This document shows positions 1,643 to 12,516 of a stretch of DNA of 28,831 nucleotides, in pieces (the first letter of the stretch is position 1; each line of letters opens with the position of its first letter). Below the pieces are notes generated by a model that saw nothing but the letters and a program-made list of their open reading frames with translations, searched no databases and was not told the DNA's origin. The stretch comes from a virus. Position numbers and translations under genes: made by a program. The DNA is taken from IMG/VR virus record IMGVR_UViG_3300049893_001283, positions 1 through 28,831 of that record. The stretch is one strand, 5' to 3'.

Positions 1643-1650
1643 TATTTATA
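1643..1650 (+). promoter_or_regulatory. TATTTATA motif upstream of portal gene
   Basis: This exact TATTTATA octamer lies 31 bases before the portal ATG at 1682. It is one of seven copies placed in the sense orientation ahead of start codons. It is the reverse complement of the T4 late promoter core TATAAATA. A late-promoter role is inferred from position and recurrence only. Confidence 0.5.
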
Positions 1651-1681: not shown

Positions 1682-3610
1682 ATGGCTGAACAAAAAGACC
1701 TATTTTCAAGACTGAAGAGGATGTTTTCTACGGACGTTATCGTTCGTAATGTTGGTGGCAAGCGCCTGAAAGTTGTTGACACCGACGAGATTCAATACGC
1801 GACAGACAGAAACAGTTTGCGTGACCGCTTCAATCGTCTCCGCAGTGCAACATACAACTTGCACAATCGCGACCTTAGCATGGCATATCAAGCATCACGT
1901 CTTGAGCTTTTCCGCGACTATGACGTGATGGACATGGACCCAATCATCGCGTCGGCCTTGGACATTTATGCCGACGAGTGTCTTGTGCCAAGTGAATTTG
2001 GCAAGGTTCTTACCATCAAGAGCAAAAACGAAAACATCAAGCGCATCCTCGATAACCTTTTCTACGACATTCTCAACGTTGAGTTCAATCTTTGGAGTTG
2101 GACGCGCAACATGTGCAAATATGGCGACTTCTTTCTGCGCATGGAAATCTCTCCTGAGTATGGCGTGTTCCTCGTTCATCCAATCAGCCCATATGAAATC
2201 ACTCGCGTTGAAGGTAGTGACCCGAAGAATCTGAACTATGTGAAGTATCAGCACGATGGCGCAGGCGGCGGCATGGAGTATGAGAATTTCGAAATCGCAC
2301 ACTTCCGTCTTATCAGCGACAGCAACTTCCTGCCTTATGGTAAGAGCATGATTGAACCTGCTCGTCGCGTGTGGAAGCAACTCAGTCTCATGGAAGACGC
2401 CATGCTCATTCACCGCATCATGCGCGCGCCAGAAAAGCGCATCATCAAGATTGACGTGGGCAACATTCCACCAAACGAAATCGACACGGCGATGGAAAAG
2501 ATTATCAGTCAGATGAAGAAGGTGCCGTATATCGACGAACGCACCGGTGACTACAATCTCCGCTTCAACCTGAACAACATGATGGAAGATATCTACATGC
2601 CGGTGCGTGGCGGCGACAGCGGCAACAGCATCGATACTCTTCCGGGCATGGAGTTTACTGGTATCGACGACCTTGAGTATATCCGCAACAAGATGATGGC
2701 GGCACTCAAGATTCCAAAGGCATTCCTTGGATACGAAGAAGGCATCAGTGGCAAGGCTACCCTCGCCGCCGAAGACGTTCGCTTTGCTCGCACGATTGCT
2801 CGTATTCAGCGCATCCTCATTTCCGAACTCACAAAGATTGCTATCGTTCACCTTTATGTTCAGGGGTATCAAGACGCCTCGCTTGTTGACTTTGAACTCG
2901 AACTCGCCAACCCATCCACCATCTTCGAACAAGAGAAGATTGAAATCTGGCAAAACAAGGTGTCACTGGCCAAGGACATGATGGAAGCCAGCATGTTCAG
3001 CAAGAAGTGGATTTATGGCAAGGTCTTCAACATGTCCGAAGACGACGTGGAAAATGTTCACAAAGAAGTCATCGCGGACAAGAAAGAAGAATGGAGAATG
3101 CAGCAGATTGTGGACGAAGGTAACGACCCGGCAACCAGCAACCAAAAAGCATCTGATGGTGAAGTGTCTGACCTTGGTGGTGGTCCTGATTCCGGTGGTG
3201 GTGGAGATGCTCTGCCAGAAATTCCTGACCTTGGTGGGGAGGGTGGAGGAGATGCTCTGCCGTCGCTTGAAGAGTCTGCCGAAACTGCTTCTGACGAAGC
3301 TCAACTGAAGGAGGAGACTCGCGAAGAACGTGAGCGCGGCGAACGCGACCAAACCGGTAACAAGGCAAAATACACCAACACGTTTGACAAGACTCGTGGC
3401 GAAGATGCCTTGGGCGATAAGCAAAACAAGGAGAAATCCAAGACAGAACGTCGCACCCGCCATATATACCGTGGCTCTCCAATCGGTCTCGATGAAGACC
3501 TCAAGAACATCAAAAACCTTTTGAAGACTCGCTATAATAAAAAAGACAAGCGAGTAATCACGGAGAAGAAATCATTGCTTGATGAGGGCAATCTCATTCA
3601 AGAAGAGTAA
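1682..3610 (+). CDS. Portal protein, T4 gp20-like
   Basis: The portal forms the dodecameric ring at the unique head vertex. It nucleates prohead assembly, conducts DNA and docks the terminase and neck. At 642 residues it is longer than T4 gp20 (524). Residues 1 to about 475 carry typical gp20 sequence: DMDPIIASALDIYADE, RNMCKYGDFFLRM, HPISPYEITRVEG, LPYGKSMIEPARRVWKQL, RAPEKRIIKIDVGN and KIPKAFLGYEEG. The extra length is a C-terminal extension. It has a Gly/Asp-rich linker (about 489-536) with the motif LPEIPDLGG at 511-519, followed by a charged tail ending SLLDEGNLIQEE. The same LPE-x-PDLGG motif occurs in the core-like protein at 7349. LLDE-G in the tail fits the [L/I]-x-E consensus of T4-type prohead proteases, so the tail may be trimmed (inference). 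In T4 the sheath and tube genes separate gp17 from gp20; here they are adjacent. Confidence 0.95.
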   Translation: MAEQKDLFSRLKRMFSTDVIVRNVGGKRLKVVDTDEIQYATDRNSLRDRFNRLRSATYNLHNRDLSMAYQASRLELFRDYDVMDMDPIIASALDIYADECLVPSEFGKVLTIKSKNENIKRILDNLFYDILNVEFNLWSWTRNMCKYGDFFLRMEISPEYGVFLVHPISPYEITRVEGSDPKNLNYVKYQHDGAGGGMEYENFEIAHFRLISDSNFLPYGKSMIEPARRVWKQLSLMEDAMLIHRIMRAPEKRIIKIDVGNIPPNEIDTAMEKIISQMKKVPYIDERTGDYNLRFNLNNMMEDIYMPVRGGDSGNSIDTLPGMEFTGIDDLEYIRNKMMAALKIPKAFLGYEEGISGKATLAAEDVRFARTIARIQRILISELTKIAIVHLYVQGYQDASLVDFELELANPSTIFEQEKIEIWQNKVSLAKDMMEASMFSKKWIYGKVFNMSEDDVENVHKEVIADKKEEWRMQQIVDEGNDPATSNQKASDGEVSDLGGGPDSGGGGDALPEIPDLGGEGGGDALPSLEESAETASDEAQLKEETREERERGERDQTGNKAKYTNTFDKTRGEDALGDKQNKEKSKTERRTRHIYRGSPIGLDEDLKNIKNLLKTRYNKKDKRVITEKKSLLDEGNLIQEE

Positions 3611-3645: not shown

Positions 3646-3653
3646 TATTTATA
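3646..3653 (+). promoter_or_regulatory. TATTTATA motif upstream of 3668 gene
   Basis: The sequence CATATTTATA ends 14 bases before ATG 3668, in the gap after the portal gene. It is the same octamer and orientation as the other copies. It is a candidate late promoter; no clear purine-rich ribosome binding site lies between it and the ATG. Confidence 0.5.
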
Positions 3654-3667
3654 ACTGACACCACTGT

Positions 3668-4543
3668 ATGAAGAAGCTGAAACACTCTAAATATAAGAAT
3701 GCAGGTATCCTTTTCGAGTTGCTCGTGCGTCAAGTGACCGCCGACATTCTGAACGGCCACGAAGATTCAAAGGCCAACTCGATTTTGCGCACCTATTTTT
3801 CCGAATCAACCGAACTCGGCAAAGAGAATCGGCTCTATCGAATTGTGTTGGAAGAAAAAACCAAGGACCAAGATTCCGCCGACCGTTTGCTTGAGAGCAT
3901 CATTCGCACCCGCAAGAAGCTGGACGAACGTGCATTGAACATTCAGAAATACAATCTCATCAAAGAGATTCGCGAGAATTATCCACTGGAAGATTTTCTC
4001 AAGGGTAGCATCAACAACTACAAGCTTCTGGCCAGCATCTACAAGATTTTTGAAGAAGCTGTCAGTGATGTTCAAGCCGACCCACGCGACATTTTCAAGG
4101 CCCGCAGCTGCATCGTTGAAAGCATCGCCGCACCAAAGACGCCAACCCGTCTCGTCACCGAGGCGGAAAAGAAAGACCTTATCGAAGTTTATCAGAAGCA
4201 GAACGAAGAAGTTCGTTTGCTGGCTTACAAACTACTCGTTGATTCGTTTAACGAAAAATACAAGGGCTTGGACGACAAGCAGAAGGTTCTGCTCCGCGAA
4301 TTCGTCAACAACGTCAGCAATACAAATTCACTTCGCCAGTATGTCAACACCGAGGTTCCTCGCGTGCGTGCAGAGCTAACTGAGCTAAAGGCCAAGGTTG
4401 ATAATGATGTTGTTCGCATCAAGTTGGATGAAACCGTCAACCAACTCGACAAGATTACCAAGGGAACTCTCGTCAAAGACAACCAAATTATGGCTCTCAT
4501 GTATAGCTACGAGCTTGTCAAAGAGCTAAAAACATTGAAGTGA
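3668..4543 (+). CDS. Uncharacterised head-cluster protein
   Basis: I cannot assign a named family. The 291-residue protein is highly charged and predicted to be mostly helical, with no signal peptide or membrane segment. It begins MKKLKHSKYKNAGILFELL, followed by a long run of Lys/Glu-rich helices (EEKTKDQDSADRLLES, DERALNIQKYNLIKEI) and a C-terminal heptad-like stretch (ELTELKAKVDNDVVRIKLDE). It lies directly after the portal gene, with a TATTTATA motif 14 bases upstream, and runs into the next gene with a 1-base gap. T4 has the small core genes 67 and 68 at this place, but this protein is far longer and I see no match. A role in head assembly is inferred from position only. Confidence 0.85.
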   Translation: MKKLKHSKYKNAGILFELLVRQVTADILNGHEDSKANSILRTYFSESTELGKENRLYRIVLEEKTKDQDSADRLLESIIRTRKKLDERALNIQKYNLIKEIRENYPLEDFLKGSINNYKLLASIYKIFEEAVSDVQADPRDIFKARSCIVESIAAPKTPTRLVTEAEKKDLIEVYQKQNEEVRLLAYKLLVDSFNEKYKGLDDKQKVLLREFVNNVSNTNSLRQYVNTEVPRVRAELTELKAKVDNDVVRIKLDETVNQLDKITKGTLVKDNQIMALMYSYELVKELKTLK

Positions 4544-4544
4544 A

Positions 4545-5183
4545 ATGGCCAAAGACCTCAAAGCACTAATCCGCGAAATCACCAAGGAAGTCATTGACGA
4601 AATGACCACGACTGGTGCTGTCGCTGGCTATAATACTCCAAACGCCTTTGGCAAGAATCCAAACAAGAAGCGTGACGCTGCTCGTTCAATGCCCGGTGGA
4701 ACCGTTGTTGGAGAAACCGACACGGATGAAACCACAGTTGGTGAAAACGAAAGCATGACCATTCGTCGCTCGCTCGAAGAGTCCGAAGAAAAGGACAGAA
4801 CTGGAATGAAGTGTGAGAAGTGTCACAAAGGCACATATCAAGAAACCAGCCAGTTCGATGATGCTGACGGCGTGCTCCATTGCACCGAATGTGGTATTTC
4901 GGTATCGAGATATTCACACGGTCTCAATGAAGGCCGCAGCCGTTATCGTAATTTCAAAGAAAGTGACCTGATGAGGAATCATGCCAAGATTTCTTATGGC
5001 GTGAATCAGGCAAAAAAGATGCTCAGTGAAGTGGAGTATCTTCTTAACATCTGCGAACGCCTCAAGACCGAGGCCAACATCAAGAACTCCAACTTGTGGA
5101 AAAGAACGCAGCCAGACATGAAAGAGATTCACAAGCGTCTCAAGAACATCGCCAGCCGCATCAAAAAAATGGAGAAAGAATAA
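4545..5183 (+). CDS. Zinc-ribbon protein with capsid-targeting-like N-terminus
   Basis: This 212-residue protein has no named family that I recognise. Residues 90-116 form a four-cysteine zinc ribbon, C90-x2-C93-x19-C113-x2-C116, with typical knuckles (CEKCHKG and CTECGIS). The N-terminus MAKDLKALIREITKEVIDE is an amphipathic helix with three possible [L/I]-x-E-type sites, like several neighbours. Residues 20-85 are Gly/Thr/Glu-rich and probably flexible. The C-terminal part (about 125-212) is helical and basic, with GLNEG at 126-130 as another possible protease site. The gene starts 1 base after the preceding stop and is followed by another small gene after 3 bases, so the genes are probably co-transcribed. 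Nucleic-acid binding inside the head is a reasonable inference but is not shown. Confidence 0.85.
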   Translation: MAKDLKALIREITKEVIDEMTTTGAVAGYNTPNAFGKNPNKKRDAARSMPGGTVVGETDTDETTVGENESMTIRRSLEESEEKDRTGMKCEKCHKGTYQETSQFDDADGVLHCTECGISVSRYSHGLNEGRSRYRNFKESDLMRNHAKISYGVNQAKKMLSEVEYLLNICERLKTEANIKNSNLWKRTQPDMKEIHKRLKNIASRIKKMEKE

Positions 5184-5186
5184 CTT

Positions 5187-5690
5187 ATGAATCTAACCGA
5201 AATCGCCAAAAAAATTCTCAATGAAGATTCTTGGGGCAATAACCCAAGTGCCGCTGCTGGTCAAAATCCGGGCGAGCAGACCGCTGCTACACCACCACCG
5301 GCCACCGGCAACGTCAAATTCCATGACATCAAGAAGGATTATACCACCTTCACGTCTGCCATTGAAAAGCAAGAAGAAGCAGCCAAGAAGAAGTTTGACG
5401 CCGATTTGACCAAGGCGCTTGGCAACAAGAAAATCACCGTTCGTGCCAGCAAGGGTTCGGTGGGACAGGTTGAAAAAGACTATTCTCTCACCGTCGCGTC
5501 CGCTGATATCGTGTATCTCAAAGACAAGTTCTATGTCGTTTTGGTTGGCACAGACAAATCCGAATATTACATCAACACCGATTTCAAAATCAAGGTTGAT
5601 GCAACAGCCCCAGCCGCACCAGAAATGGCATCCGGTAAAACGGGCAACATCGTGCATCAGCCAGTGATTGGCACTTCAGCTAAAGGATAA
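5187..5690 (+). CDS. Small head-cluster protein with capsid-targeting-like N-terminus
   Basis: I do not recognise this 167-residue protein. It opens with MNLTEIAKKILNEDSWG, a short amphipathic segment ending in ILNE, which fits the [L/I]-x-E cut site of T4-type prohead proteases. A Pro/Ala/Thr-rich linker (about 20-48) follows, then a charged helix (about 50-80), then a small beta-rich domain (about 85-145, containing KITVRASKGSVGQVEKDYSL and KFYVVLVGTDKSEYYI). There is no signal peptide or membrane segment. It sits 2 bases before the prohead protease gene. The architecture, with a targeting-like peptide, a linker and one compact domain, suggests a core or internal head protein, but that is inference. 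Confidence 0.82.
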   Translation: MNLTEIAKKILNEDSWGNNPSAAAGQNPGEQTAATPPPATGNVKFHDIKKDYTTFTSAIEKQEEAAKKKFDADLTKALGNKKITVRASKGSVGQVEKDYSLTVASADIVYLKDKFYVVLVGTDKSEYYINTDFKIKVDATAPAAPEMASGKTGNIVHQPVIGTSAKG

Positions 5691-5692
5691 CC

Positions 5693-6325
5693 ATGAGCAA
5701 GCAACTACTAGTCGATTTCATTCCATTCGAGATTACTCCTCAGATTTTGAGTGAGGCTCGTTCCGCAAATCCAAATGCACCATTGGTGCTCAAGGGTCCA
5801 TTGCAAAAGGCCGGTGAGAAAAATCACAACGGTCGCGTGTATCCTCGCCGTGTTCTCGAACGCGAAGTTGAGAAGTATCAGCAAATCATCAAAGAGCGTC
5901 GTGCTCTTGGTGAACTGGACCACCCAGATAGCAGCGTCATCAATCTCAAGAACGTGTGCCACAACGTTGTGGAGTGTCACTGGGAAGGCGATACCGTAAT
6001 GGGCACAATCGAAATTCTCACCACACCATCCGGCAACATTGCCCGCGACCTCATCAAGAACAACATTCGCATTGGTATCAGCAGCCGTGGTCTTGGTTCT
6101 ACTCGCCAAATGAGCGAGAACACCGTTGAAGTTCAAGACGACTTCGAGCTGCTTTGCTTTGACCTCGTGTCCTCCCCATCTACTCGTGGAGCTTACATGA
6201 ATCTCAGCGAAGGTGTCATTAAGGAAGGTTCCAACCAATCCCAAATCATCACCGACCGCAAGCAAATTGACAAGTATCTCAAGGTGGAAGGTCTCGTGCG
6301 CGACATTCTTTCCGAGATTCGCTAA
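5693..6325 (+). CDS. Prohead core protease, T4 gp21-like
   Basis: This is the maturation protease that removes scaffold and targeting peptides from prohead proteins before DNA packaging. At 210 residues it is close to T4 gp21 (212). The family core is visible: PLVLKGPLQKAGEKNHNGRV, then GELDHPDSS with the predicted catalytic His77, then IRIGISSRGLGS with the Ser130/131 nucleophile candidates, then FDLVSSPST near 156-164. This is the T4 type of herpesvirus-assemblin-like serine protease. LSE-G at 171-174 after the catalytic core fits self-cleavage and would release a C-terminal tail. T4-type enzymes cut after [L/I]-x-E, and many proteins in this window carry such sites near their N-termini, including the capsid protein. 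The gene lies between small core-like genes, as in T4. Confidence 0.94.
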   Translation: MSKQLLVDFIPFEITPQILSEARSANPNAPLVLKGPLQKAGEKNHNGRVYPRRVLEREVEKYQQIIKERRALGELDHPDSSVINLKNVCHNVVECHWEGDTVMGTIEILTTPSGNIARDLIKNNIRIGISSRGLGSTRQMSENTVEVQDDFELLCFDLVSSPSTRGAYMNLSEGVIKEGSNQSQIITDRKQIDKYLKVEGLVRDILSEIR

Positions 6326-6326
6326 C

Positions 6327-6590
6327 ATGAAAAAATCAGAACTCAAACAACTGATTCGAGAAGTTCTTCGCGAACATCAAAATGACACTTATGCCGATGT
6401 TAAAAAGCATATTGCTTCCGCGTCTGAATACGTAAAGCATATCGAAAAACCGGCTGCATCTAATTCCGAGTTTTCTACCGCACTGAACCTATTGTATCAA
6501 GAACTGAACGACGCTGCAAGTATTGTGCTAGGTCATATCGAGACGATTGACCCAACCAGCGCCTCCAAATACAAACAGCGCCCTCGTTAA
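6327..6590 (+). CDS. Small helical protein with capsid-targeting-like N-terminus
   Basis: This is an 87-residue unnamed protein. I chose ATG 6327, just after the protease stop, over an in-frame upstream ATG at 6213 because the upstream part only overlaps the protease gene in another frame. The N-terminus MKKSELKQLIREVLREH is a clear amphipathic helix with LIRE and VLRE sites. The rest is helical (ASASEYVKHIEKP, STALNLLYQELNDAASIVL) and ends with a short basic tail. Its size and position next to the protease recall the small internal core proteins of T4 (gp67, gp68), but I see no sequence match. Confidence 0.8.
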   Translation: MKKSELKQLIREVLREHQNDTYADVKKHIASASEYVKHIEKPAASNSEFSTALNLLYQELNDAASIVLGHIETIDPTSASKYKQRPR

Positions 6591-6591
6591 T

Positions 6592-7311
6592 ATGCCAGCC
6601 AAATCACAAAAGCTCAAGACAGATGAAGTTGCCACAATTGGGTATGGTGGACATGATATTGCCCGTGAAGACAAATTTGGGCGCAGAATCACGAACATCA
6701 AAAACGAACTGGCAAAGATGGGGTTTGAAATTGATTTCATCTATCATTGCGGTGGCGACGAAGAGCCAATGGAAGTGGATATCACGGCGGTCAACGAAAA
6801 AACCGGAAAGAAAATTTCTTTCACGGTGGAAGAAGGAAAGCCAAAGATTGACATCAAAAAGCTTCCACAAAGCCCAGTAAAAGAAGGCACATGTCAATGT
6901 TGCGGTGGCGACGGCTGGTATGTTGAGCCAGATGAAAAGGGCGAACCAAAACAGGTTCAATGTGATGCTTGTCGGGGTCAAGGAGGGAGTAAAGACCCTG
7001 AACCAAGAATTCGTCCAAGTGGAGAACCAGAAAACGAGCCATTCTTCGAGAACAATCTTCTTGGCAACATGGCCAAAGGCATGATGGGACAACCAAAAGG
7101 TCTCGCAGTCAATGGTAAGACCGTGGACGAATCTTCCGTGGAAATCGAAGACATCGATACGCGAGACTATCCAGATTTCTGTGACGCTTACGTGTCATCT
7201 GCCGCGTTTGAAGACGGCACGGAACTCAATGACGCCGAGCTAGACGAGTTCAACGACAAACATGGCGAATGGATTAATGAAAAAATCCACAACGACCAAC
7301 TTTGGATGTAA
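6592..7311 (+). CDS. Protein with DnaJ-type zinc fingers
   Basis: This 239-residue protein starts at ATG 6592, one base after the previous stop; an in-frame ATG at 6547 lies inside that gene. It contains two CxxCxGxG repeats of the DnaJ cysteine-rich type: C101-Q-C-C-G-G-D-G and C124-D-A-C-R-G-Q-G. It has no J domain. The N-terminal 90 residues look like a small alpha/beta domain (MGFEIDFIYHCGGDEEPMEV, KKISFTVEEGKPKIDI). The acidic C-terminus contains DYPDFCDAYVSSAAFEDG and ELNDAELDEF, a pattern I associate with other phage hypothetical proteins. Unlike several neighbours it lacks the targeting-like N-terminus. A zinc-binding assembly factor or chaperone-like role is possible, but function is unknown. 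Confidence 0.82.
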   Translation: MPAKSQKLKTDEVATIGYGGHDIAREDKFGRRITNIKNELAKMGFEIDFIYHCGGDEEPMEVDITAVNEKTGKKISFTVEEGKPKIDIKKLPQSPVKEGTCQCCGGDGWYVEPDEKGEPKQVQCDACRGQGGSKDPEPRIRPSGEPENEPFFENNLLGNMAKGMMGQPKGLAVNGKTVDESSVEIEDIDTRDYPDFCDAYVSSAAFEDGTELNDAELDEFNDKHGEWINEKIHNDQLWM

Positions 7312-7335
7312 CGACATTTTATATCAACCGCTGTA

Positions 7336-7343
7336 TATTTATA
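7336..7343 (+). promoter_or_regulatory. TATTTATA motif upstream of 7349 gene
   Basis: TATATTTATA ends only 5 bases before ATG 7349. If this is a T4-type late promoter, the transcript would start at or next to the start codon. It helps fix the start of the downstream gene at 7349 rather than at the in-frame ATG at 7262 inside the previous gene. Confidence 0.55.
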
Positions 7344-7348
7344 AGCAT

Positions 7349-8119
7349 ATGAACGACAAGATTACCAACCCATTTCTCAAGCAGATGATTTCTGAAATTG
7401 CCAACAAGAGCAACGAGGGTCGTCTTGTTGATATCAACTGGACCGTATTGAATGAAGGTAAGAAGAAGGGTGGCAAGCCAGCCGCTCTCACCAGTTCCGG
7501 TCTAGGCAAAAAGAGCGGCACACCAAAACCTCTCAAGAGTGACAAGCTCAAGGAAGCCGCCAAGCCAGAAGAAGCTCCAAAGGATGAGCCAAAAGATGAT
7601 TTGCCAGAACTACCAGACCTCGGTGGAGCGGACAAAGCAGAAGCCCCAAAGACAGATGCTCCTGCCAAGGCACCAGCAAAAGACGGTCCACCAGCAGATT
7701 CTCCCGCCGCTGACGCAGCCCCCGCAGAGCCAGCAGCCGACACACCAGCTGATGGTGAAGATGCGGAAGCAGCCGAAGCTGATGCTGCCAAGGCCAAGGC
7801 CGAACTAGAAAAGGCCCGTGCCGAAAAAGACCGTGCTGAGAAGGAAATCGAACAGCACGCTTATATCAAGCTAGGTAGTAACGCCGGTGTTCAGTTCCTT
7901 CTCGGTAAGATTCTTGACCACGCTTTCAAAACCAACACCATCGATGCGCTCGCCGGTGAAATGGTTCAAAAGCTCAAGATTCAAACACCAGAAGACATGA
8001 ACACATTCTCCGAAGATACCGCCGCTTATCGCGTTATCCCGGGTATGCCAGAACTTTTGGCGTCGATGAAGGGTCTTGCTACAAAGCAACCAGACACAGA
8101 CGAAGAAGCAACCGAATAA
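7349..8119 (+). CDS. Ala/Pro/Glu-rich prohead core-like protein
   Basis: This 256-residue protein starts at ATG 7349, which directly follows a TATTTATA motif. The N-terminus MNDKITNPFLKQMISEIANK has an MISE site, and VLNEG follows near residue 34. The middle (about 40-150) is low complexity, rich in Ala, Pro, Lys and Asp/Glu, and carries LPELPDLGG at 85-93, nearly identical to a motif in the portal tail. A coiled-coil-like stretch rich in Ala/Lys/Glu/Arg (about 150-170) precedes a compact C-terminal helical domain (about 172-250, with KLGSNAGVQFLLGKILDHAF). This composition is typical of scaffold or core proteins removed during head maturation. It may replace gp67/gp68 of T4 (inference). Confidence 0.82.
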   Translation: MNDKITNPFLKQMISEIANKSNEGRLVDINWTVLNEGKKKGGKPAALTSSGLGKKSGTPKPLKSDKLKEAAKPEEAPKDEPKDDLPELPDLGGADKAEAPKTDAPAKAPAKDGPPADSPAADAAPAEPAADTPADGEDAEAAEADAAKAKAELEKARAEKDRAEKEIEQHAYIKLGSNAGVQFLLGKILDHAFKTNTIDALAGEMVQKLKIQTPEDMNTFSEDTAAYRVIPGMPELLASMKGLATKQPDTDEEATE

Positions 8120-8130
8120 CACAAAATTTT

Positions 8131-8589
8131 ATGGACATTCTCAAACTAAAGCCACTTATCGAAGGTATCGCATCTTCTGTTCCAGCCAACGTTCCTGAAA
8201 AACAGGAAAAGCAATGGAGCACCGAAGAAAAGCGTGCGGCACTTGAATCAATCGGTGCATATGGTCAATGCGGCAAGCACCTGTATCGTGAACACAATCT
8301 CATGGAGATTGCTCACAAGCTTTCGGAAATCACGAAGGTTGCCCAAGAACTCGCCATTCATGAGACGGTCAACAGCAAGGACGACGGATGGTTTGACAAG
8401 AAGACCGTGGAAACCAATTTCAAGCAACTGAGCAAGCTCAGTGAAGAATTCAACAAGCTCGCCAAGGATGCACACACGCTCCAACAGCGCATGGAAGCCC
8501 TCTATGAAGATGGTGCCCACATCGTTGGCCGCTACTATGAAATCAAGGACTTGAAAGAAGGTATCGCCGTTTCAAAAATCGCCAAGTAA
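8131..8589 (+). CDS. Helical head-cluster protein with targeting-like N-terminus
   Basis: This 152-residue protein of unknown family begins MDILKLKPLIEGIASSVPAN, with LIE-G as a possible prohead protease site. The rest is almost entirely helical, with Lys/Glu heptads (EIAHKLSEITKVAQELAIHE, QLSKLSEEFNKLAKDAHTLQ) consistent with a coiled coil. There is no membrane segment or signal peptide. It lies 11 bases after the core-like protein and just before the 142-base leader of the scaffold gene. An internal head or core component is the best guess from position and N-terminus. Confidence 0.8.
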   Translation: MDILKLKPLIEGIASSVPANVPEKQEKQWSTEEKRAALESIGAYGQCGKHLYREHNLMEIAHKLSEITKVAQELAIHETVNSKDDGWFDKKTVETNFKQLSKLSEEFNKLAKDAHTLQQRMEALYEDGAHIVGRYYEIKDLKEGIAVSKIAK

Positions 8590-8731: not shown

Positions 8732-10084
8732 ATGTCAGACCTACTCAAACAAGCGATTGCCGACGCCAAAGCCGTCCGCGCCACCGCCCTTTCGAATGCA
8801 CGTGTTGCTCTTGAAGAGCACTTTGCACCAAAGCTACAGAGTATGCTTTCTGAGAAGCTAAAGGCCGAAGTTGAAGCATCTGAAGACGAAGGTCTTCCAG
8901 TTGCCGACGCTCCTGTTGCTGATGAAGCACCAGTCGCCCCTGAAGCTGCTCCTGAAGCCTCTCTCGATGCTGCTCCTGAAGCCGCTCTCGATGCTGCTCC
9001 TGTTGCTGATGAAGCCCCAGTTGACGCCGCCCCTATGGGCGACGAAGCCCCGGTTGACGCCGCTCCTGTTGCTGATGAAGCCCCAGTTGACGCTCTTCCA
9101 GCCGATGAAGAAATCGAAGAAGACGCCATGCGCGGCACAATCGCTGCCGAACTCGACCCAACTCTTGCTCTCGCAGAAGCCGAAAAAGCTTCTTCCGACT
9201 ACAAGAAGACAACTTCCGGTGAAAAGACCGAAGACAAGGGTCAAGAAATCGTTGACTCCACAAAGCTCAAGACCAAGGGCAGCTTGACTGCCAAGAATGA
9301 CGCTCGCAAGGCTTCCCCTGACTACAAGAAGACAACTTCTGGTGCCAAGACGGAAGACCCACAGGGCGCATCCAATGAACTTTCCAAGGGCATGAAGAAG
9401 ACCGAGTCTTCTACACCAGCTCTTAAAGAAAATGAAGAAGTTGATGAAGCTTCTCTTGACGAAATCCTCAAGGAACTCGAAGCCTCCGTCCAAGATGTTG
9501 GAATGGCCGACGAAGCTCCTGTTGCCGCTGGTGCAGCTGCTCCTGCCGGTGACGAAGAAATCGACTTGAACGAACTCCTGTCCGAAGACGACGACAAAGA
9601 CGCCGACGACAAGAAGGAAGACAAGGACGAAGACGATAAGGACGACAAGAAGCCAGACTTCCTCAAAGAAGAAAATCTTTCGTTGAAGAAGGAACTACAA
9701 GAATACCGCAGCACAGTTATCTATCTGCGGGACCGTATCAATGAAATTAACCTGCTCAATGCCAAGTTGCTTTACACGAACAAATTGTTCAAGCAAGCCA
9801 ACCTGACCAATGAACAGAAGCTTAAAGTAGTCGAATCGTTTGACCTCACGAAGTCGGTTCGTGAAGCCAAGCTCGTCTACACGACGCTAGCCGAGTCGTT
9901 CAATTTCGGTGCCAAGAAGAATGTTGAGCCAGCCAAGAAGCCGGTCTCCACAACCGTCAAGGCAATCACCGAAGGTCTCGCCAGCAAGTCCGTTGCATCA
10001 ACCAAGCCGACCAATCCAGCAGTCTTGACAGAAGGTGCCGAAATGGCCAACCGCTTCAAGAAACTCGCCGGTATTCGCAAGTAA
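8732..10084 (+). CDS. Prohead core scaffold protein, T4 gp22-like
   Basis: This is the main scaffold of the prohead core, expected to be degraded by gp21 before DNA enters. At 450 residues it is longer than T4 gp22 (269). The conserved part is C-terminal, about 310-395: a coiled coil with INLLNAKLLYTNKLFK, LTNEQKLKVVESFD and REAKLVYTTLAESF, a pattern typical of gp22 relatives. The N-terminal two thirds are low complexity. They contain Ala/Pro/Asp repeats of the type VADEAPVDAAP (about 57-127), a duplicated DYKKTTSG block at about 156 and 197, and a very acidic Asp/Lys run at 286-308. It ends VLTEGAEMANRFKKLAGIRK; LTE-G fits the protease site, and a terminal RFKKLAGI-type peptide is, as I recall, shared by other marine T4-like core proteins. 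It sits immediately before the capsid gene. Confidence 0.88.
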   Translation: MSDLLKQAIADAKAVRATALSNARVALEEHFAPKLQSMLSEKLKAEVEASEDEGLPVADAPVADEAPVAPEAAPEASLDAAPEAALDAAPVADEAPVDAAPMGDEAPVDAAPVADEAPVDALPADEEIEEDAMRGTIAAELDPTLALAEAEKASSDYKKTTSGEKTEDKGQEIVDSTKLKTKGSLTAKNDARKASPDYKKTTSGAKTEDPQGASNELSKGMKKTESSTPALKENEEVDEASLDEILKELEASVQDVGMADEAPVAAGAAAPAGDEEIDLNELLSEDDDKDADDKKEDKDEDDKDDKKPDFLKEENLSLKKELQEYRSTVIYLRDRINEINLLNAKLLYTNKLFKQANLTNEQKLKVVESFDLTKSVREAKLVYTTLAESFNFGAKKNVEPAKKPVSTTVKAITEGLASKSVASTKPTNPAVLTEGAEMANRFKKLAGIRK

Positions 10085-10118: not shown

Positions 10119-11723
10119 ATGTCAGACATCAAATCACTACTCACAGAGACAGCCAACCCAATGGCCGTCCTCATGTCTCAGACCCGTGGCCTCGTTGCCA
10201 AGTGGGAAAAGACTGGTCTCCTTGAAGGCGTCAAGAGCGACATGGAAAAGTCGCACATGTCCATCCTTCTGGAAAACCAAGCACAGCACCTCATTGACGA
10301 AGCTACCCGCACGGGCACTTCGGCCAATTCCGAACAATGGGCCGGTGTGGCACTCCCACTCGTCCGTCGTGTGTTCGCTGAAATCGCAGCCAAGGAATTC
10401 GTTAGCGTTCAGCCAATGAATCTTCCTTCCGGTCTCGTGTTCTACCTAGACTTCAAGTATGGTAGCGACCAAGCCGGTAAGCCATCCTTCAGCGGCCAAA
10501 GCCTCTTCGGTGGCACAGGCACCAAGCTCGGTTCCACCGACAGCGCAACCAACGGTCTCTACGGCCAAGGTCGCTTCGGCTACACCATCAACGACCAAAG
10601 CACGACTGTCACAGCTACAGCTACGACAGCTTCGTGGGAAGATGCAAAGTTCGTTCCTGAACTGAGCGCTTCTCAAGCAGCAGGCAAGCTCCTCAAGATT
10701 TCTGCCTCGCTCGCTGGCACCAGCTTTGACTCGGTCGGCGTCCGCGCCTTCACCGTGTCTGGCTCCGGTATCGTTGATTTCTATCCGGGCTTCACAACCG
10801 TCGTCGGTAACACCGTTTACTTCATCGTTTCCGGTTCCGGCGTTGGCGCTTCCCCAAGCGTTGCCGTTGCTTACCACAAGCAACCAGCCGACACATCCCG
10901 TGGCGACTTCGAAGACCAAGGCGCTGGCCTACCAAACACCACTGGTATCGCTAACGATATCGGTATCCCAGAAGTCAACTTGGAACTCAAGTCCGAAGCT
11001 ATCGTGGCCAAGACCCGTAAGCTCAAGGCCGTCTGGACCCCAGAATTGGCTCAAGACTTGAACGCCTACCACAGCATCGACGCCGAAGCCGAGCTAACCG
11101 CTCTCCTCTCGGAATACGTCTCGATGGAAATCGACCTCGAAATCCTCGACATGTTGGTTCAAAGCGCTCCAAGCGTCACAACCGAATTCTGGTCCGCTCG
11201 TATCGGTTCCGAATTCAACACAACCACCCGTCTCTTCGAAGACACCGCTGCTAACCGCACGGCCTACGTCAAGAGCACATGGTTCCAAACCCTCGGCAAC
11301 AAGATTCAGAAGGTCTCTAACAAGATTCACCAGCTGACTCTCCGTGGCGGCGCTAACTTCATCGTCTGCTCGCCTGACGTTGCAACCATCATCGAGTCCA
11401 TCCCGGGCTTCACCACAAACACGGACGGCGACCAAGCCAAGTTCGCAATGGGTGTTGCTAAGGTCGGCGCTCTCAGCAACCGCTGGACGGTCTACAAGAA
11501 CCCATACATGACCGACAACGTCATGTTGGTTGGTTTCCGTGGAACGAACTTCCTCGAAACCGGTGCGGTGTATGCTCCATACATCCCACTCATCCAGACC
11601 CCATTGGTCTATGACCCAGTCAACTTCACGCCTCGTCGTGGTGTCATGACTCGTTATGCCAAGAAGATGCTGCGTCCTGAGTTCTATGGCAAGATTGTCA
11701 TCGGCGCTCTGAACGAAGTCTAA
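10119..11723 (+). CDS. Major capsid protein, T4 gp23-like
   Basis: This is the main shell subunit, expected to have the HK97 fold. At 534 residues it is close to T4 gp23 (521). Family sequence is clear: NSEQWAGVALPLVRRVFAEI, FVSVQPMNLPSGLVFYLDFK, VAKTRKLKAVWTPELAQDLN, HSIDAEAELTALLSEYVSME and near the end RRGVMTRYAKKMLRPEFYGK. Residues 58-62 read LIDEA, so the prohead protease should cut after Glu61, close to Glu65 in T4. The leader (1-61) starts MSDIKSLLTETANP, which resembles the short N-termini of its neighbours. An AGGA stretch about 9 bases upstream can serve as ribosome binding site. The gene is followed by strong terminators, as expected for a very highly expressed late gene. No gp24-type vertex protein follows it in this window. 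Confidence 0.96.
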   Translation: MSDIKSLLTETANPMAVLMSQTRGLVAKWEKTGLLEGVKSDMEKSHMSILLENQAQHLIDEATRTGTSANSEQWAGVALPLVRRVFAEIAAKEFVSVQPMNLPSGLVFYLDFKYGSDQAGKPSFSGQSLFGGTGTKLGSTDSATNGLYGQGRFGYTINDQSTTVTATATTASWEDAKFVPELSASQAAGKLLKISASLAGTSFDSVGVRAFTVSGSGIVDFYPGFTTVVGNTVYFIVSGSGVGASPSVAVAYHKQPADTSRGDFEDQGAGLPNTTGIANDIGIPEVNLELKSEAIVAKTRKLKAVWTPELAQDLNAYHSIDAEAELTALLSEYVSMEIDLEILDMLVQSAPSVTTEFWSARIGSEFNTTTRLFEDTAANRTAYVKSTWFQTLGNKIQKVSNKIHQLTLRGGANFIVCSPDVATIIESIPGFTTNTDGDQAKFAMGVAKVGALSNRWTVYKNPYMTDNVMLVGFRGTNFLETGAVYAPYIPLIQTPLVYDPVNFTPRRGVMTRYAKKMLRPEFYGKIVIGALNEV

Positions 11724-11842: not shown

Positions 11843-12499
11843 TTAGGCGGCGTTGTTCATTACCGTCGCGTTCCACTCCATGCGTTTTTTTACTCCACGA
11901 TTTGACGTGGTCTTGTATTCGCGGTGGTTGAGATATTCCTTGGCCGCATCATCAAAGCGGTGGGCGGCGAGCAAGGCCATTGTTTTTGGCCCCATATCGC
12001 CACGATATAATGCGTTCACAATAGCAATTCGAACCGTGAGAGGCAAGGAATCAAAGTTCTTTATAGAACGCTTTGCGACCTGAATCTTGCTGTTTACGTC
12101 TTTTTCTAACAAACGCACAGCCTCGGAGTCTGATATGCCTTTGTCAAAATTTTCACCTTTTTGAATCTTGTGGCCATATGCGATAGTGTCGCTGCCACCT
12201 TCAAGACTTTTGTGGGGATACCACTTTCCGTGAGACCTGTTGTATCCACCGTGCCGGTTGTTGGTGTTATTTTCAAATCTTTTTATAACTTCCGCCGCTT
12301 TGCTCATTAGCTCACCTTGTTCACCGATTCCCGTGAAGTCAATGTCTTTCTGCATATAAGGCGTTCCTGCACCGTCACTTGCCGCGTTCTGATAAGCATG
12401 TGTGACGTGCGGCACCACAAACTGGACTGGTGGCGGTAGGTCTGCGACAGGTGCCTCGATTAAGCGTTGTTCGATTAGAATATCCTTGAGCTTTATCAT
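11843..12499 (-). CDS. GH24-like lysozyme with capsid-targeting-like N-terminus
   Basis: This is the only gene on the minus strand. I chose ATG 12499 (218 residues) because GGGG and a TATTTATA motif lie just upstream; the longer open frame has no such support. Residues 68-218 look like a phage lysozyme that cuts peptidoglycan glycan chains: catalytic Glu76 in VIKRFEN, then WYPHKSLEGGSDTIAYGHKI, where T105 matches the Thr of the usual TIGYGH motif. The Asp of the triad is not clearly conserved (E100 or D104 may replace it), and about 20 residues are inserted after Glu76. The N-terminus MIKLKDILIEQRLIEAP has two [L/I]-x-E sites and matches its head-cluster neighbours. There is no signal peptide or holin gene nearby. 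It may be the endolysin, or a virion lysozyme packaged in the head and injected. Confidence 0.82.
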   Translation of the reverse strand: MIKLKDILIEQRLIEAPVADLPPPVQFVVPHVTHAYQNAASDGAGTPYMQKDIDFTGIGEQGELMSKAAEVIKRFENNTNNRHGGYNRSHGKWYPHKSLEGGSDTIAYGHKIQKGENFDKGISDSEAVRLLEKDVNSKIQVAKRSIKNFDSLPLTVRIAIVNALYRGDMGPKTMALLAAHRFDDAAKEYLNHREYKTTSNRGVKKRMEWNATVMNNAA

Positions 12500-12508
12500 A
12501 ACATCCCC

Positions 12509-12516
12509 TATAAATA
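12509..12516 (-). promoter_or_regulatory. TATTTATA motif upstream of the lysozyme gene
   Basis: Read on the minus strand this is TATATTTATA followed by GGGGATGTT and the ATG at 12499, a gap of 9 bases. The motif keeps its orientation relative to the gene it precedes, which argues that it is a directional signal and not chance AT-richness. Confidence 0.55.

Follow-up and report, generated by a model that had tools for sequence, protein, structure and literature searches.

What are seven uncharacterised genes doing around the prohead protease of an uncultured phage? The question is raised by IMG/VR record IMGVR_UViG_3300049893_001283, a 28.8-kb virus fragment (28,831 nt; the window hereafter) from a T4-like phage, whose plus strand carries terminase, portal, S77 protease, gp23 and tail genes. 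In T4, only gp67 and gp68 are encoded between portal and protease and nothing lies between gp21 and gp22; cyanophage S-RSM4 has one small gene plus gp21 in the matching interval. In the window, the interval from the portal gene to a gp22-like gene is filled by genes called here A, B, C, gp21, D, E, F and G. An initial annotation of this DNA had drawn the contrast with T4, and comparison with the T4 interval confirms it: the seven open reading frames A to G are present at this place, tightly packed on one strand, and can be taken as coding because they have homologues and are under strong purifying selection. Our answer, to which we give a probability of roughly 70%, is that the block is a late prohead operon of a large, mostly uncultured T4-like clade, in which conserved core genes are combined with cargo genes that share an N-terminal tag.

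The core consists of six genes (A, B, C, F, G and the gp22-like scaffold), the order of which is constant in dozens of uncultured relatives and partly kept in three named phages. At the loci examined in the first set of relatives, the order gp17-gp20-A-B-C-gp21-F-G-gp22-gp23 is kept with few gaps, and gp20 and A are adjacent in nearly all of 73 more divergent loci. Gene A is found in only three distinct lineages among 50,697 phage records (Microcystis phage Mel-JY01, the Flavobacterium immuto phages and the huge phage LR756508), and hundreds of its relatives are present in IMG/VR. Across 13 genomes or contigs, A is single-copy and always inside the head block beside the portal gene, and the C-terminal module of E occurs once per genome in the head block only; no homologue of either was seen away from the head genes. 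The ratio of nonsynonymous to synonymous substitution rates against the closest relative, L006, is 0.03 for A, 0.02 for B and 0.04 for C, and that of F against L025 is 0.11. Homologues of G also occur in Mel-JY01 and LR756508; the searches used did not find C or F in the head blocks of Mel-JY01, immuto or LR756508. Genes A, B, C, F and G can be viewed as conserved head genes that are missing from the T4 model.

The accessory genes vary at two places, the A-B interval and the gp21-F interval, D lying in the latter in the window. Of the 56 loci having both A and B, 40 carry one to three accessory genes, and near relatives differ in whether they have a slot gene and in which one. Together with D, the slot genes form 13 clusters that are unrelated past residue 20, and all 13 start with M[TK]-x3-L[KR]xLI-x-E, for which the consensus is M-x4-LKQLIRE. 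In 624 pairwise comparisons of tag codons 6 to 13, 293 were identical, 198 synonymous and 133 nonsynonymous; for body codons 21 to 28, 598 of 624 were nonsynonymous. Since the tag codons differ mostly by synonymous changes while the body codons are unrelated, the tag is conserved as a peptide and not as DNA. D itself (6327..6590, plus strand, as are all genes of the block) is a candidate accessory cargo gene made of the tag MKKSELKQLIRE (6327-6362) and a body of its own. E (6592..7311) carries a DnaJ-like CxC/CxxC ribbon (6892-6972) and a C-terminal DxRDYPDFxDAY module (7108-7308), and in many relatives this DYPDFxDAY module stands directly after the tag. Both D and E are exchangeable accessory genes outside the conserved core.

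The reach of the tag extends well beyond this locus. A degenerate pattern for it matched at least 119 IMG/VR stretches, against 1 with codons permuted, and among the matches listed it begins at least 90 distinct proteins, whose bodies fall into 54 unrelated kinds. In 82 of these 90, an in-frame stop lies no more than 20 codons upstream, so the tag is truly N-terminal. A sister tag suggested by LR756508, M-K-x-T-x-x-[KQ]-L-R-x-I-I-R-E, matched at least 120 stretches against 0 permuted and starts at least 118 proteins in 96 bodies among the matches listed. Peptidase_S77 was present in 20 of 20 large sister-tag contigs tested (142-369 kb; among L367-L446), a count taken on tag carriers; for the first tag it was found in 6 of 20 shorter fragments, 5 of them among the 6 longest. 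The first-tag pattern gave 11 matches in 257 billion bases of bacterial genomes; by eye these resemble thioredoxin, adenine phosphoribosyltransferase and quinolinate phosphoribosyltransferase genes, and they were rejected as carriers of the shared tag. In the literature searched, we found nothing on Mel-JY01 and nothing quoting the tag sequences.

These counts bear on the strongest competing explanation, in which all seven genes are purely structural counterparts of gp67 and gp68, nothing is injected, and variation in D and E adjusts head size or packing. Core synteny and single copy number fit such a scheme, as does the acidic, low-complexity character of F and the gp22-like protein, which is that of T4 core proteins. 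It is hard to reconcile with slot genes that come and go and are swapped between near relatives, or with the same tags on at least 54 and at least 96 unrelated bodies, many of them encoded far from head genes, and we consider it unlikely.

What, then, could the tag do? T4 gp21 cuts after L/I-x-E, and in the ten-residue capsid-targeting sequence (CTS) of T4 IpIII, residues 4 and 7 serve targeting and residues 8 and 10 processing (PMC9026906). In the window, the gp21-like prohead protease (5693..6325) matches the Pfam Peptidase_S77 profile (E=1.9e-24; 86.7 bits, above the curated cut-off of 27), and the gp23-like major capsid protein (10119..11723, plus strand; Gp23, E=4.1e-78) starts with MSDIKSLLTE, an exact fit to the T4 spacing. 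The strict spacing is also fitted by the N-termini of B, D, F and a minus-strand lysozyme; 6 of 24 called window genes have the motif against about 2% expected (P=5e-6). The five targeting-like N-termini of the initial annotation are upheld, B, D and F having the strict form and C and G a looser one. A generic test of CTS spacing showed enrichment in seven of the eight related genomes or contigs, with 6-13% of gene N-termini fitting compared with about 2-3% of internal positions; it was not significant in Mel-JY01, the eighth. The same test was flat (about 1%) in two crAss-like phages without gp21 and recovered IpII, IpIII and gp24 in a T4 segment.

The candidate cleavage sites are conserved as well. 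B (4545..5183; helical in its C-terminal half) has a CTS-like N-terminus, LKALIRE, and a junction EVIDE/MTTTGAVAGYNTPNAF, and keeps [L/I/M]-x-E / [M/I/A]-[T/S]-x-[T/S]-G...GYxTPxAF across very diverged relatives. Among 60 distinct forms of this junction, Glu occupies P1 in 57 and L/I/M/V occupies P3 in about 50, and the junction stays constant despite a propeptide that ranges from 19 to 100 residues. In C (5187..5690), an N-terminal helix leads to E13 (KILNE), which is present in 23 of 23 aligned members, followed by a disordered linker and a helix plus beta domain. F (7349..8119), a candidate prohead-core protein, combines a CTS-like LKQMISE, an acidic low-complexity linker and a second site, WTVLNE/G, of the nearly invariant form W-x-x-[L/I/V/A]-x-E/[A/G/S]. 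The helical G (8131..8589) begins with LKLKPLIE/G, of which E11 is over 90% conserved. The protease has an N-terminal [L/I]-x-E/[A/S] site of its own (LSE-21/A in the window, LTE/A in L019, IKE/S in Mel-JY01, LTE/S in immuto and IKE/S in LR756508), resembling LIE-9 of T4. By the T4 rule, the sites in B, C, F, G and gp21 would be cut by the protease.

Much the same observations speak to a second alternative, that the tag docks to a partner other than the capsid, such as host polymerase, membrane or a replication compartment, and that an amphipathic helix produces [L/I]-x-E incidentally. Helices rich in L and I with an E are common, and the genes of many tagged proteins are not near head genes. 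We regard this as improbable, given that the residue spacing is that of the mutationally defined T4 CTS and recurs in gp23 and T4 gp24, that B keeps only the Glu junction while its propeptide changes length, and that the large sister-tag contigs tested all carried S77. Least credible of all is an effect at the DNA level, in which the shared 5' ends, as a recombination patch or translation-initiation region, would help unrelated late genes to change places and the peptide would have no selected function: slot genes do have some 50 similar bases at their starts and move between relatives, but 198 of the 331 differing tag codon pairs are synonymous, the tags start genes at many unlinked loci, and permuted-codon controls gave only 1 and 0 matches.

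The prohead operon with tagged cargo is thus supported at the level of sequence by synteny, selection, the tag on unrelated bodies, site conservation and the S77 association. Several points weigh against it. E is untagged in the window, and the strict T4 spacing is a poor match for C and G, which have only the looser [L/I]-x-E form. Many tagged genes lie far from head genes, making the head-operon slot one of several homes, and the S77 count covers tag-carrying contigs, not random large ones. Structural and profile matches gave no function for A, C or the cargo bodies. Packaging, cleavage, injection and target are what we infer for proteins known from their sequences alone.

With these points in mind, a working model can be outlined. 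The core proteins A, B, C, F and G and the gp22-like scaffold would enter the prohead together with the S77 protease, and at maturation the protease would cut the propeptides of B, C, F, G, gp21 and gp23 after [L/I]-x-E. The slots after A and after gp21 would hold exchangeable small cargo with only M-x4-LKQLIRE in common. The N-terminal tag helix would dock each cargo protein into the core, and the protease would then remove the tag after L/I-x-E. The freed bodies would remain in the head and probably leave with the DNA on injection. By the example of T4 Ip1-3, their targets would be host defence or metabolism; since Ip1-3 are injected inhibitors of GmrSD, a part in countering defence is most likely for D-like cargo. 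The shared tag would thus very probably be a ticket for packing proteins into the virus head. We lean, with less assurance, towards a broader proposal: that LKQLIRE/QLRxIIRE is a lineage-wide N-terminal packaging code loading an open-ended set of unrelated effectors into the heads of uncultured large T4-like phages, that the gp21 head operon is one of the sites where cargo is exchanged, and that the tag alone may list hundreds of injected proteins. If the tags act as in T4, a simple N-terminal pattern could provide a catalogue of injected proteins from metagenomic phages, a class otherwise unrecognisable given that the bodies resemble nothing known. It would also offer a rule open to direct testing (tag, protease cut, packaging) for how large phages deliver proteins.

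Gene A (3668..4543) encodes a 291-residue, all-helical core protein with an invariant E17 in L-F-E. Its AlphaFold2 model (predicted local distance difference test, pLDDT, 81) is all helical and matches only uncultured-phage proteins, with no meaningful PDB match; the model of C (pLDDT 71) likewise gave no meaningful PDB match. A is a helical protein of uncertain fold, perhaps a linker between portal and core. Pfam and PHROGs gave no confident match for any of A to G, and assignments of B as Ephrin_rec_like and F as RecE-like were rejected as matches under the cut-off or of low complexity. The four-cysteine patterns that the initial annotation saw in B and E are real: C90-x2-C93...C113-x2-C116 in B, and C101/103/104...C124-x2-C127 in E. 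The ribbon of B (CxxC...CxxC, residues ~78-125; 4776..4919) is present in the window, L040, L051 and L060; L006, at 98% identity, lacks it, as do the other relatives in the alignment. It is a clean, recent insertion, and it was rejected as a defining feature since most relatives lack it.

Upstream of several of these genes lies a short element, TATTTATA, of which the window has 8 copies against 0.15 expected. The copies start at 1643, 3646, 7336, 12509, 12543, 13934, 21607 and 21642, in the sense orientation and a few to about 40 bases 5' of gene starts, and precede gp20, A, F, tail genes and the minus-strand lysozyme gene. The copy at 1643..1650 is upstream of the gp20-like portal gene (1682..3610, plus strand; the immuto homologue is annotated gp20), that at 3646..3653 is 14 bases 5' of A and that at 7336..7343 is 5 bases 5' of F, all three on the plus strand. 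The element is enriched 5' of genes, in the sense orientation, in near relatives, Mel-JY01 and immuto; no enrichment was seen in LR756508. The T4 late promoter is TATAAATA, and TATTTATA reads as its reverse complement. Judging from copy number and enrichment in relatives, TATTTATA is likely the late promoter of this phage group, and A-B-C-gp21-D-E would form one late unit, followed by F-G.

Downstream of the block, the gp22-like scaffold (8732..10084, plus strand), which is acidic with an isoelectric point of 4.5, was assigned by position and composition; no sequence similarity to T4 gp22 was detected. The corresponding immuto gene (NC_055915 125626-126867) is labelled 'DNA polymerase phi-like protein', and the Mel-JY01 head block (PP395634 22183-22410) holds a gene labelled 'RpsU S21'; both annotations are doubtful. 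The T4-lysozyme-like protein (11843..12499, minus strand; E=1.3e-4 to T4 lysozyme), whose gene is preceded in the sense orientation by TATTTATA at 12509-12516, has the CTS-like start MIKLKDILIE, and its relatives in G001 and G004 keep such a start (MSIIKLRDLLHE). From this start, it is possibly packaged. CTS-like N-termini also occur on a DnaQ-type exonuclease (Pfam RNase_T; G001 100571-101425, L091), a weak 5'-nucleotidase match (W02 109856-110455, L141) and, by eye, a protein resembling nicotinamide mononucleotide adenylyltransferase (GRFQP; G003 33484-36336, L149), all candidate packaged enzymes. In LR756508, the portal-protease interval (L004 9948-15235) has about 12 small genes, several starting KLRxIIRxE, and more than 15 proteins encoded at ~177,700-337,900 (L114-L122) start with M-K-L-K-x-L-L-x-E. 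T4 Alt is a packaged ADP-ribosyltransferase, and most of these tagged paralogues have LYRG, PKRSxSxF and late Glu motifs reminiscent of such enzymes. Their assignment as ADP-ribosyltransferases is retained only as a lead; the R-G / S-x-F / E motifs are suggestive and searches of Pfam and PDB gave no support.

How does this block compare with known systems? The closest likeness is to the internal proteins of T4. Ip1-3 share only a common leader and are injected inhibitors of GmrSD restriction enzymes (PMC12373910). T4 injects a handful of such proteins, and each of the three put to the test recently inhibits type IV restriction enzymes of the host (PMC12373910). As with IpI, IpII and IpIII, unrelated bodies follow one short N-terminal leader with hyd-x-x-hyd-[L/I]-x-E spacing (hyd, hydrophobic), the phage encodes an S77 protease like gp21, and the genes are accessory and swapped. 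The likeness rests here on sequences, packaging being what we infer. The leaders differ, being LKQLIRE or QLRxIIRE here and MKTYQEFIAE in T4, so that spacing and character agree and the sequences are not close; the slot here is in the head operon beside portal and protease, and the bodies are many more. Because its leader sequence differs, we do not file the tag set as a member of the T4 CTS/internal-protein family, though it appears to work like one.

For the core, the comparison is with gp67, gp68 and gp22, which likewise lie among portal, protease and capsid genes and are candidate protease substrates; A, B and C lie, like gp67 and gp68, in the portal-protease interval, and both F and the gp22-like protein are acidic, as in T4. 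There are five conserved proteins here against two, with no sequence or profile similarity detected, and A, a conserved protein without known fold match, sets this core apart. A and G as homologues of gp67 or gp68, and B of gp68, were not supported, with hhalign probabilities below 1%, in a comparison of A, B and G whose T4 side was a single sequence, which limits its sensitivity. The head proteolysis of phiKZ and SPN3US also involves N-terminal propeptides on many internal proteins and a gp21-like protease cutting after Glu, with S/A-x-E as the phiKZ motif (PMC9026906) in place of L/I-x-E and one recurrent tag sequence. Also close are the head blocks of Mel-JY01, immuto and LR756508, which share A beside the portal, a B-like protein and gp21, and in which most genes are annotated hypothetical or unannotated; a gp22-like protein is shared with Mel-JY01 and immuto and was not seen for LR756508. 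The initial proposal of an inner-head module has good support from synteny, protease sites and T4-type spacing; a single seven-part complex is too simple, D and E being accessory, and to propose a previously undescribed system was an overstatement, the logic being that of the T4 CTS and internal proteins (PMC9026906, PMC12373910). The system is therefore not categorically new; what is new is the tag consensus, its location in the head operon, the core set among A to G, and the scale.

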